A stretch of DNA of 46,989 nt from Candidatus Aminicenantota bacterium (GTDB taxonomy: Bacteria > Acidobacteriota > Aminicenantia > Aminicenantales > Aminicenantaceae): NCBI GenBank assembly GCA_030669305.1, contig DAOVDU010000006.1, positions 1 to 46,989 on the forward strand, given 5' to 3'. Below the pieces are notes generated by a model, which saw only the letters and a list, made by a program, of their open reading frames with translations, ran no database searches and was not told where the DNA came from. Made by a program: the position numbers and the translations under genes. The first letter of the stretch is position 1; each line of letters begins with the position of its first letter. This document shows, in pieces, positions 21,453 to 46,989 of this stretch.

Positions 21453-21568
21453 GATAATAAGTCCCAAATTCCAAACATATATTAGTTTAAGGTTTAATGT
21501 TGAAAGTTTAAGGTAAGAATATAAACGGGTTTAAGGTTGAAGGTTTAAGGTTAAAATCAATAATTTAA

Positions 21569-21733
21569 GGCTCATCTCCAAAAGAGTTGGTAGGATCATA
21601 AGGATTCAAGGGGTCAAGGATTCGAGGGTTCGAGTGACGTGGTGAAAAGTTACAAATAGCATAACGTTTGGCAATGGTCCTATGATTTTTGAAGGGTTCG
21701 AACCCTTTGAATCAACTAATCGGGAGAATAACC
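21569..21733 (+). mobile_element. IVS-like repeat element, copy A (internally deleted)
   Basis: The 165-bp unit begins GGCTCATCTCC and ends GGGAGAATAACC, imperfect inverted ends. It aligns with the left ~120 bp and right ~45 bp of copy B at 39577-39892, and differs at few positions. Between the ends it keeps GATTCAAGG/GTTCGAGG words and the start of a reading frame. The central part present in copy B is missing. It is nested within the TTTAAGG palindrome. No transposase is present, so any movement would need outside help; mobility is inferred from the multiple copies. Confidence 0.6.
21639..21692 (+). pseudogene. Remnant of a four-helix-bundle (S23/IVP-type) gene start
   Basis: From the GTG codons at 21639/21642 the frame reads VVKSYK, then a TAG stop, then HNVWQWSY. 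This matches the opening of the minigene in copy B (LKSYKEQNVWQRFY) and of the four-helix-bundle family in general. The rest of the gene is gone. Confidence 0.5.
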
Positions 21734-21960
21734 AAATAAAAACACCTTAAACCTTAAACATTAAACCTTCAACCTGTTTATATCCTTGCCTTAAACATTA
21801 AAATTTAGACCTTAAACTAATTTGTTTGTGAGTGGTGAACATGGGAAATTAGTTAATAATCAAGTAGAAGGGATTTAGGAATCAGAATTTTGTATTCAGA
21901 ACTACCAGAAAAACAAACTAAAAAAAAGTTGAGGGGTTTTTGGAAAGCAAATTTAAATAT

Positions 21961-34831: not shown

Positions 34832-35030
34832 CAAATTAGTTTAAGGTTTAAAGTTTAAGGTTCAAGGTATTCATATTTTTCATACAGTTCCATAAACATT
34901 AAACACTCAATCTTAAACCAATTTCCACTCTTACCTTAAACATTTAACATTCAACCTTAAACCAAAATAGGTTTCAGTCATTGAGATTTTGGTGCTTGTT
35001 TGGTATTTGGAAATTGTAATTTGGATTTTT
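34832..35030. repeat. TTTAAGG-family dispersed repeat
   Basis: This starts CAAATTAGTTTAAGG, as does the outer end of the palindrome at 21481-21822. It contains self-complementary TTTAAGG/CCTTAAA words. The segment from about 34895 to 35027 is nearly identical to the reverse complement of 46751-46883, including CCTATTTTGGTTTAAGG read on the minus strand. The spacer 34688-35154 holds this repeat, the promoter and the AACAGATT tandem, with no gene visible. Confidence 0.8.
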
Positions 35031-35120
35031 GTAACACTATGGGAATTACTTATTCAATTAGAAATCCATTATCCACACAATTCGGATAGGAGCCAAAAAA
35101 TTTAAGGTACTTAACGGAAC

Positions 35121-37318: not shown

Positions 37319-37389
37319 GAGTGAGGAGTAAGGAGTAAGGAGTAAACAGGAATAAAAATATATTACTCCTCACTCCTCACTCCTTACTT
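37319..37389. repeat. GAGTAAG-word hairpin
   Basis: The left arm (37319-37345, GTGAGGAGTAAGGAG...) pairs with the right arm (37364-37389) around an 18-nt AT-rich loop. The few mismatches are A/G changes that G-U pairs would tolerate. It lies between two minus-strand genes and could act as a terminator or processing site for the radical SAM transcript. Confidence 0.8.
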
Positions 37390-37394
37390 AGTCT

Positions 37395-38516
37395 TCAGGT
37401 CCAAACTCCTGGAATAATATGATTGCAATATTTACATCTCCCGTCCTTTAAATTGTTTTTCTGAATCTGATAGCCTCTTCTCTCTATAACTATTTTCTTG
37501 CAGTTGGGACAGAAAGTGTTTTCGGCCATATGCCCGGGGACATTTCCTATGTAGACATAATGAATTCCTTCTTCAAGAGCAATGTCTCGAACTTTTATTA
37601 GTGTTGATATAGGCGTTGGAGGAAGATTTTTCATAAGATACATGGGATGGAAGCGGGAAAAATGAAGCGGGATGTCAGGCCCGACCTCTCTCAATATCCA
37701 CTTGCACATTTTCCGGATTTCCTTAGTGCTATCGTTAAGTGTTGGAATGACTAGATAAACAATTTCGAGCCAAACATTGCTCGTCGCAACTATTTTTATA
37801 GCCTCAAGAACAGGCTGTAGTTCCCCTCTGACATAATTTGTGTAAAATTTCTGGGAGAAAGCTTTTAAATCTATTTTTATGCTGTCCACAACTTCAATCA
37901 ACTTTTCGAGAGGCTCAGGGTTTATATGCCCTCCAGTAATGACAACATTTTTAATGCCTTTTTTGCGTGCTTCTTTAGAAGTGTCAACCATGTATTCATA
38001 AAAGACAATAGGCTCGGAGTAGGTATAAGCAATTACAGGGCAGTTGTTTTTTTTGGCTGATTTTACGACTGAGTCAGGAGGAAAGTCTATATGATGAATC
38101 TGTTCAGGCCTTACTTGGGAGATCTCCCAATTCTGGCAGAACTTGCAGTTCACATTACACCCAGCTGTAGCAATGGATAGAGCTTGGCTTTTTGGGAGGA
38201 AGTGAAAGAGAGGTTTTTTTTCTATAGGATCGACATGTATAGAACAGGCTTTTCCATAGACCAGTGTGTAATATGTCCCGCCTATGTTTTCTCTAACGCC
38301 ACAGTAACCTCTTTCTTTATCACCCAGTTTGCAGAAACGGGGGCACAGAACACATTCAATTTCCCTATCCGGGTGCTTTTTGTAGAAGAGAGCTTCGACC
38401 TTGGAAAGATTTGCCTTCTCTTGGAAAGCATGCATATCTATGAGTAAAGAGGACATTCCGGAACAGGCTAAAATACTGGCACCTCCAGTTGTTTTGAAAA
38501 ATTGTCGTCGATTCAT
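37395..38516 (-). CDS. AmmeMemoRadiSam-system radical SAM enzyme with Tat-like signal
   Basis: This 373-residue radical SAM protein has the 4Fe-4S/SAM motif C120-x3-C124-x2-C127 (GCNVNCKFCQNW). It also has the family's N-terminal cysteine set ECVLCPRFC (54-62) plus YCGVRE, and a C-terminal zinc-like FCPNC...CKYC motif. It is close to pyruvate-formate-lyase-activating-type enzymes, with unknown substrate. The N-terminus, NRRQFFKTTGGASILACSG, looks like a twin-arginine signal, which would place an iron-sulfur SAM enzyme outside the cytoplasm or make this a degenerate leftover. The AMMECR1 and Memo partners that name the system are absent from the window. The DUF362 gene lies 37 bp upstream. Confidence 0.88.
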   Translation of the reverse strand: MNRRQFFKTTGGASILACSGMSSLLIDMHAFQEKANLSKVEALFYKKHPDREIECVLCPRFCKLGDKERGYCGVRENIGGTYYTLVYGKACSIHVDPIEKKPLFHFLPKSQALSIATAGCNVNCKFCQNWEISQVRPEQIHHIDFPPDSVVKSAKKNNCPVIAYTYSEPIVFYEYMVDTSKEARKKGIKNVVITGGHINPEPLEKLIEVVDSIKIDLKAFSQKFYTNYVRGELQPVLEAIKIVATSNVWLEIVYLVIPTLNDSTKEIRKMCKWILREVGPDIPLHFSRFHPMYLMKNLPPTPISTLIKVRDIALEEGIHYVYIGNVPGHMAENTFCPNCKKIVIERRGYQIQKNNLKDGRCKYCNHIIPGVWT

Positions 38517-38524
38517 TTTTTTCT

Positions 38525-38553
38525 CTTTACTCCTTACTCCTCACTCCTTACTT
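38525..38553. repeat. ACTCCTT-word repeat, single arm
   Basis: CTTTACTCCTTACTCCTCAC fills the gap between the radical SAM gene and the DUF362 gene and is the same word family as the hairpin at 37319-37389. On the coding strand it reads AAGGAGT, which resembles a ribosome-binding site 13 nt before the radical SAM start. Confidence 0.75.
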
Positions 38554-39540: not shown

Positions 39541-39576
39541 TCTAGAAAAACCTTTGAGGGAATAATTAAAATTTGT

Positions 39577-39892
39577 GGCTCTTCTCCAAAAGAGTTGGTA
39601 GGATCATAAGGATTCAAGGGGTCAAGGGGTCAGGGGTTCGAGTGACGTGCTGAAAAGTTACAAAGAGCAGAACGTTTGGCAAAGGTTCTATCAGCTATGT
39701 TTAGAAATTTACAAAATAACAAAAAGATTCCCTAATGGGTGTTATATTGAGACTGGTAAATTAGAGATACTACAGGAGGGGATAGGAGAGGTTGAGAGGA
39801 TGCTCAAAGCACTTCGTTAGAAAGAAAAGCACTTGACCCCTTGAATCCTTGAATCCTCGAACCCTTTGCATCAACTAATCGGGAGAAGAACC
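39577..39892 (+). mobile_element. IVS-like repeat element, copy B, with four-helix-bundle minigene
   Basis: This 316-bp unit begins GGCTCTTCTCC and ends GGGAGAAGAACC, imperfect inverted ends. Inside each end are complementary arrays: GATTCAAGGGGTCAAGGGG on the left and CCCCTTGAATCCTTGAATCC on the right, so the whole can fold into a long stem. The loop carries a reading frame for a shortened four-helix-bundle protein. Copies A (21569) and C (46920) share the ends. No transposase is present. The spacer 39541-40068 holds only this, a candidate promoter and a TTTGAG array. Confidence 0.7.
39647..39820 (+). pseudogene. Internally deleted four-helix-bundle (S23/IVP-type) protein gene
   Basis: A GTG-started frame of 57 codons ends at TAG 39820. 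Its first half reads SYKEQNVWQRFYQLCLEIYK, then ITKRFP, the usual first helix of the family. It then passes straight to IETGKLEILQEGIGEVERM and LKALR, the usual C-terminal helix. Full-length members have about 115-125 residues, so the middle two helices are missing without a frame break. It is either a decayed gene or a selected minigene; without expression data I call it a pseudogene. Confidence 0.65.
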
Positions 39893-39922
39893 AAATTTGT
39901 TATATAATTAGATAAAGTATCG

Positions 39923-46717: not shown

Positions 46718-46750
46718 AGAAGCACGACTTTCTAGACTGGCCTAAAGACT

Positions 46751-46883
46751 AAATTCCAAATTACAATTTCCAAGTACCAAATAAGCACCAAAATCTCAAT
46801 GACCGAAACCTATTTTGGTTTAAGGTTGAATGTTTAATGTTTAAGGCAAGAATAGAGACTGGTTTAGGGTTGAATGTTTAATG
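46751..46883. repeat. TTTAAGG-family dispersed repeat, inverted copy
   Basis: This matches the reverse complement of about 34895-35027 almost throughout, including CCAAATTACAATTTCC, AGCACCAAAATCTCAATGAC and TTTTGGTTTAAGGTTGAATG. It lies after the AI-2E family gene and just before copy C of the IVS-like element. Confidence 0.85.
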
Positions 46884-46919: not shown

Positions 46920-46989
46920 GGTTCTTCTCCCAATTAGTTGATGCAAAGGGTTCGAGGATTCAAGGGTTCAAGGATTCAAGTGTTTTTTT
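46920..46989 (-). mobile_element. IVS-like repeat element, copy C (cut by window end)
   Basis: GGTTCTTCTCC at 46920 and the following ~60 bases (TTAGTTGATGCAAAGGGTTCGAGG, then GATTCAAG words) are the reverse complement of the right end of copy B at 39577-39892. The copy is therefore inverted, and any four-helix-bundle frame would lie on the minus strand beyond the window. Confidence 0.7.

Follow-up and report, generated by a model that had tools for sequence, protein, structure and literature searches.

The three related units in the window (the whole stretch of 46,989 nucleotides that was analysed, contig C78) are, judged from their sequence, very probably copies of a non-autonomous ISL3-ended transposable element of the MITE/MIC type. 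The cargo of this family is an S23 (PF05635) gene located between inverted arms of 8-nt repeats (AAGGATTC, AAGGGGTC and others), and the composite element was seen in two distant bacterial groups, homologous end to end.

Three units in the window

The first-pass annotation had described three units with GG(C/T)TC(T/A)TCTCC ends and inner words able to pair; each was found at the coordinates it gave, and the ends and pairing words were seen. All three are intergenic. The window contains no rRNA, and no Rfam family was matched within it.

Copy B (39577..39892, + strand) is a whole ISL3-ended element of 316 bp with an S23 remnant, as defined by a DNA search of the genome and read-out of its flanks. 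The flanks are identical over 8 bp (AAATTTGT, at 39569..39576 on the left and 39893..39900 on the right), forming a perfect target site duplication (TSD). Its terminal inverted repeats (TIRs), GGCTCTTCTCCAAAAGAGTTGGT on the left (39577..39599, + strand) and GGTTCTTCTCCCGATTAGTTGAT on the right (39870..39892, in the minus-strand reading), match the ends of ISL3 IS elements. Inside them, the predicted fold delimits a left inner arm of approximately four octamer units (AAGGATTC AAGGGGTC AAGGGGTC AGGGGTTC GAG; 39608..39642, + strand) and a right inner arm in which the octamer units are inverted (39832..39866, - strand). The S23 remnant (39647..39820, + strand), which was compared with a longer copy from the same genome (C50a) and with locus L163 described below, retains 57 codons in frame and lacks the core, about half of the protein.

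Copy A (21569..21733, + strand) is a complete 165-bp deletion derivative that sits between the arms of another palindrome, of TTTAAGG type (left arm 21472..21555, + strand; right arm 21747..21830, - strand). Copy C (46920..46989, - strand) is a right end alone, cut by the end of the contig.

Further repeats are present in the window. ORF-less palindromes of the TTTAAGG type at 34840-34962, 21472-21830 and 46815-46883 make up a second dispersed repeat family, and 34897-35032 and 46748-46883 have a 136-nt inverted stretch in common (90%). Inverted arms of an AGGAGTA 7-mer at 37319-37356 and 38516-38552 enclose a 373-codon ORF (37395-38516). These arms resemble those of the S23 cassettes described below, but the enclosed ORF is unrelated to S23 and longer.

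Copies in the draft genome

The genome to which the window belongs (G000) is a 2.06 Mb draft in 122 contigs, 91% complete. It was searched in full at the DNA level with copy B as the query, and the flanks of the matches were then read. Matches were found at about 34 places, far above chance, and comprise 19 complete and 15 partial copies, which bears out the view that the element is dispersed and has further copies elsewhere in the genome. Among the partial copies, 13 are cut by contig ends, where some pieces may be two halves of one copy, and 2 are one-ended. Insertion of a copy in the genome's own 23S rRNA gene was set aside as a reading, as the draft assembly contains no 23S gene.

Boundaries are fixed, as had been predicted, and consist of 23-nt imperfect TIRs and AT-rich 8-bp TSDs. 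All 19 complete copies begin with GG(A/C)TC(A/T)TCTCC, and nearly all finish with GGAGAAGAACC or a single-base variant of it. Read directly, the left end (GGCTCATCTCCAAAAGAGTTGGT) and the right end (GGTTCTTCTCCCAATTAGTTGAT) agree at 17 of 23 positions, as imperfect inverted repeats. Complete copies fall into size classes of 481 nt (C50a), 342 nt (C26a), 316 nt (copy B), 214-248 nt and 156-165 nt, and those of 156-248 nt are the majority. One reading frame is kept to a greater extent in the larger copies, so that the short copies seem to have arisen by deletion.

A perfect 8-bp match between the two flanks was found for 7 of the 19 complete copies, compared with 1.5% of mismatched left-right pairs. 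Agreement at 7 or more of 8 positions was found for 10 of 19, a count reached in none of 20,000 permutations; the other 9 have no clear TSD. No perfect flank match of 9 bp or longer occurs among the 19. For six of the 19 copies, the site is the space between the arms of another intergenic palindrome; this is true of 1 of 328 random positions (Fisher P 8e-8).

Origin of the outer ends

The TIR pattern was searched in 119 genomes (G000 and relatives), with the pattern read backwards as a control. It is present in 17 genomes, and the control gave 0 matches in each genome. For G000, there are 24 forward and 23 reverse matches (47 in total; control 0). ISL3 transposases (PF01610, profile search) were found in 33 of the 119. 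One of the loci examined, L093, is a 1342-bp IS bounded by TIRs GGATCATCTCCCGATTAGTTGGT and GGTTCTTCTCCCATTTAGTTGGT with TSD ACATTTAA. L090 and L096 are like it, with the same TIRs and an ISL3-family transposase, and in L088, L125 and L128 the TIR is seen at the retained transposase-side end. The same TIR and 8-bp TSD also bound MITEs with other cargo (L124, L130 and L143, in genomes G014 and G062).

The units in G000 hold no transposase gene and are multicopy, and their TIRs are common to IS elements of related genomes that carry an ISL3 transposase; the units therefore appear to be non-autonomous ISL3-ended elements. On sequence grounds, the assignment of the outer ends to the ISL3 class can be regarded as settled, and the earlier reading of them as the ends of an rRNA intervening sequence (IVS) gives way to that of ISL3-family transposon ends with 8-bp TSDs. 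The TSDs point to a DDE transposase that would work in trans. The remark that no transposase is present is correct for the element itself; related genomes, however, hold IS that pair these ends with a transposase.

The G000 draft (91% complete) yielded no transposase with matching ends, and no matching TIR was found near the ISL3 gene detected in G140, a Desulfatiglandales genome discussed below. Because neither genome shows an ISL3 transposase with matching ends, the mobilising enzyme is postulated from related genomes. The only ISL3 gene of G000, in L067, was rejected as the source since its TIR is different (GGTTCTCTTCCATATTGTGTGGGTAAT). This gene lies in a 1328-bp IS (L067 937-2264, G000:C43) with TSD TTTTAATT, which occupies the loop of a TTAGTCGG palindrome; TSD length and kind of target are those of the family, and copy C89b is placed in the same way.

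Other cargo, including GGAATCC-type palindromes, accompanies the same ISL3 TIR in L084 and L133 (G009) and in L130 and L143 (G062). G009 has 48 TIR matches, many of them at contig ends.

The S23 gene and its decay

C50a matches PF05635 with 127.1 bits (curated cut-off 33.8) in a profile match that includes one in-frame TAG, and its S23 gene has a frameshift at the end. The match confirms the prediction that an S23-type gene for a four-helix bundle lies inside the element, and the gene between the common ends is nearly full-length, though broken by the TAG and the frameshift.

The first-pass annotation also proposed a frame shared by copies A and B. This is correct for copy B, where the frame (GTG start, VLKSYKEQNVWQRFYQLCLEIYKITKRFPNGCYIETGKLEILQEGIGEVERMLKALR*) spans 57 codons and, through an in-frame loss of the core, joins both ends of the S23 protein. 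It fails for copy A, which has no usable frame because it halts after six codons (VVKSYK*).

No intact S23 protein is predicted among the family copies of G000, all of which are broken. Because only broken S23 genes are present here, and most complete copies are without most of the gene, S23 does not appear to be needed in cis for the element to jump. The closest solved structure to the S23 family is 2GSC (XCC0516; E 1e-25), for which a homopentamer built from four-helix bundles is reported (PMC4990558). L149 (G036:C249), a copy with a nested left-end duplication, has an S23 frame that is still open where the contig ends.

Relatives in Desulfobacterota and selection on S23

Among 80 S23 loci (L163-L242) taken from genomes of many phyla, the TIRs of the family were found in only 3, L163 (Desulfosarcina), L205 (Desulfatiglandales) and L165 (Desulfobacteraceae). 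The right side of L165 falls beyond the contig end, and L205 has TIRs on both sides of a frame-broken S23 gene (L327). L163, 489 bp long, is an intact TIR-arm-S23-arm-TIR composite whose S23 frame is open, and C50a aligns with it from first to last base (491 nt, 72% identity).

G140, the genome that contains L205, has 130 TIR matches (64+66), and elements were described in the stretches of it that were read. The S23 frame is open in L331 (564 bp, perfect TSD ATATTTGA), in L332 (581 bp, perfect TSD) and in L329, which is without a clear TSD. The derivatives L330 and L333-L337 are shorter, and several of them have TSDs that match perfectly or at 7 of 8 positions.

Pairwise comparison of the three open G140 copies gave dS of 0.23-0.30, dN of 0.03-0.08 and dN/dS of 0.15-0.29, with an excess of synonymous changes (P 0.0001-0.003), and dN/dS is 0.18 over 60 codons for C50a and its counterpart in G036. 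As estimated from aligned codons, these low ratios thus show S23 to be under purifying selection in mobile lineages elsewhere, in a small sample of three copies from one genome and one 60-codon pair, and the values may reflect selection on the source lineage before the copies spread.

Tandem-repeat arms at S23 loci across phyla

A local inverted-repeat score was computed for the flanks of 77 of the 80 S23 loci and, as controls, of 67 other ORFs in the same stretches. A score of at least 15 was obtained for 52 of 77 S23 loci and 3 of 67 control ORFs (Fisher P 3e-16), and a score of at least 25 for 13 S23 loci and no controls. The arms are tandem repeats, with a best lag of 7 or 14 in 36 of the 52, of 8, 15 or 16 in 15, and another value in 1; shuffled arms give a flat lag signal. 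The repeat unit changes from locus to locus. Orientation to the gene is fixed; on the sense strand, 48 loci have a G-rich upstream arm and 3 a C-rich one. Three further S23 genes of G000 are also near such arms, although for one of them, L065, the automatic arm score is not above shuffles. Arms are absent at the S23 loci L145, L146, L148, L152, L153 and L156 of relatives. No rRNA was found beside free S23 loci at the 60 loci scanned.

Many cassettes lie between co-directional genes, such as sdhA and sdhB, gmk and nadD, or a thiolase and an acyl-CoA dehydrogenase gene (named by inspection of the encoded proteins). Cassettes in operon spacers include L170, L181, L188, L221, L227, L174 and L196; L185, L191, L226 and L211; and L199, L218 and L228. 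The gmk-nadD spacer holds a cassette in five genomes, is short and without one in G124, G131, G133, G130, G134, G129 and G136, and in G125, G126 and G123 contains short ORF-less stretches that have the look of inverted repeats. At a second spacer, one position is held by two dissimilar S23 clades with different arms. As two clades occur at one spacer, and spacers are empty in relatives (Flavobacteriia), free cassettes do come and go. Four different S23 genes (L144, L155, L158 and L160) with differing flanking repeat units are found on one 6-kb contig (G037:C51).

The chances are evenly balanced that mobile hairpin cassettes built around S23 form a widespread but unrecognised class, with inverted arms of 7- or 8-nt units that change fast yet remain matched, located between operon genes in many phyla. 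The IVSs of rRNA would then be members that landed in rRNA, and the window family a lineage that gained ISL3 ends and became a DNA transposon.

Folding and the resemblance to rRNA intervening sequences

An end-to-end fold is predicted for copy B (316 nt; z -5.5). Predicted folds of this kind (z -5.5 and -6.5) consist of a long stem with the S23 ORF, or its remains, in the loop. Because inverted repeats alone predict such a fold, it says nothing on RNA. The suggestion that an RNA of the element is processed is unsupported, as mismatches between arms show no preference for G-U over A-C (60 wobble-type and 72 A-C type); selection on the arms as RNA, sought as a G-U excess, was thus rejected by this test.

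The likeness to IVSs noted in the first-pass annotation is partly right, since an S23 ORF does lie beside stem arms of short tandem repeats. However, spread as an IVS does not fit the ISL3 ends, and movement would be DNA transposition from those ends because TIRs and TSDs are present. The 23S rRNA IVS of Coxiella is reported to contain tandem heptamers (GACAGAT) upstream of its S23 ORF, with an RNase III cut at the first heptamer repeat (PMC4990558). As read in that paper, the heptamers are the best evidence for an architecture that IVSs and S23 cassettes may have in common. They also favour the idea that selection on a folded sense-strand RNA, from which the S23 message would be cut by an RNase III-type step like that in rRNA, keeps the inner arms complementary, and the placement of cassettes between co-directional operon genes and the fixed orientation of the arms agree with it. 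Set against this are the unbiased mismatches and the fact that template switching in the palindrome, a copying of arms at the DNA level, explains inverted units equally well. Selection on RNA is possible rather than probable, and because G-U and A-C mismatches are about equal, the arms may stay alike by DNA template switching instead.

Spread and persistence of the element

Under the preferred reading of a non-autonomous ISL3-ended element, an ISL3 transposase acting in trans would recognise the TIRs, and the element would have inserted into AT-rich 8-bp targets, often the spacers of other intergenic palindromes. The S23 gene of the family has decayed in G000, where shorter deletion derivatives form most complete copies. 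More tentatively, S23 while intact may help the element to persist. Its pentamer could bind the hairpin arms of the element, either in RNA or in extruded DNA, which would make the element less costly to its host or shield the hairpin. This role in persistence through arm binding, most likely as a pentamer, is rated somewhat short of an even chance.

It is unlikely that S23 is a neutral passenger, caught by chance within ISL3 ends, and that the element is an ordinary MITE with a meaningless frame. Recurrence of the composite in two distant groups with end-to-end homology, and the dN/dS of 0.15-0.29 of the open G140 copies and the C50a/G036 pair, argue against it, even though every family S23 copy in G000 is broken, the commonest complete forms are without most of the gene, and MITEs with matching TIRs carry unrelated cargo. 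A still less probable alternative, and a very improbable one, is a self-moving IVS-like element in which the S23 protein or the RNA or DNA hairpin drives spread without a transposase. Cassettes without TIRs at 77 of the 80 S23 loci in many phyla and at three further loci in G000 would suit it, as would the Flavobacteriia cassettes that fill operon spacers empty in relatives and the two unrelated S23 clades at one spacer. However, the window family has the TIRs and 8-bp TSDs common to ISL3 elements and multiplied in G000 although each of its S23 copies is broken. Chance palindromes or an assembly artefact, which the 13 copies cut by contig ends and the tendency of draft assemblies to collapse short repeats might suggest, are refuted by the 19 complete copies in differing flanking DNA, the TSD statistics and the presence of the same element in independently assembled genomes.

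Comparison with known systems

S23 has so far been known chiefly as a protein of inserts in bacterial rRNA, and questions about where rRNA IVSs come from, how they move and what their protein does date back to their first description. An S23 gene between identifiable transposon ends, with TSDs and signs of selection, makes the spread and role of S23 testable. Transposition of rRNA IVSs was suggested earlier, but with no transposon in hand (PMC4990558). In the IVSs of 23S rRNA with an S23 ORF (Coxiella, Leptospira), as in the window family, the ORF is in the loop of a long stem, and in Coxiella heptamer repeats adjoin it (PMC4990558). The family differs in being outside rRNA and in having transposon ends and TSDs, and RNase III cutting is known for the IVS side only.

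ISL3-family insertion sequences share with the family TIRs of 22-24 nt beginning with GG and an 8-bp TSD. The family is without a transposase and measures approximately 156-580 bp, whereas the IS are about 1340 bp. MITEs and MICs are short, have IS ends and direct repeats but no transposase, and are moved in trans, and in a MIC the cargo is a gene that does not encode a transposase. MIC231 of Bacillus cereus is an example of a MIC, as cited in PMC6542083. The window family resembles them in its short length, IS ends, direct repeats and lack of a transposase, and differs in its passenger, a gene for an S23/IVS protein inside its own octamer-armed hairpin, and in its ISL3-type ends and relatives in two distant bacterial groups. 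The literature searched yielded no MIC with an S23 gene, and on S23 combined with tandem repeats or ISL3 ends it offered the Coxiella heptamers alone, a weak negative as few subscription journals were covered. The element is thus an ISL3-ended MIC/MITE with a passenger new to the literature searched.

Free-standing S23 genes, annotated as four helix bundle protein genes, encode the same protein family, and about two-thirds of the sample have inverted 7/8-nt tandem-repeat arms. Most differ from the window family in lacking ISL3 TIRs, which L163, L165 and L205 alone among the 80 possess. The 7/8-nt armed cassettes could help annotators to assign many 'four helix bundle protein' genes to elements instead of to the host, and this broader pattern may prove a larger discovery than the window family itself.
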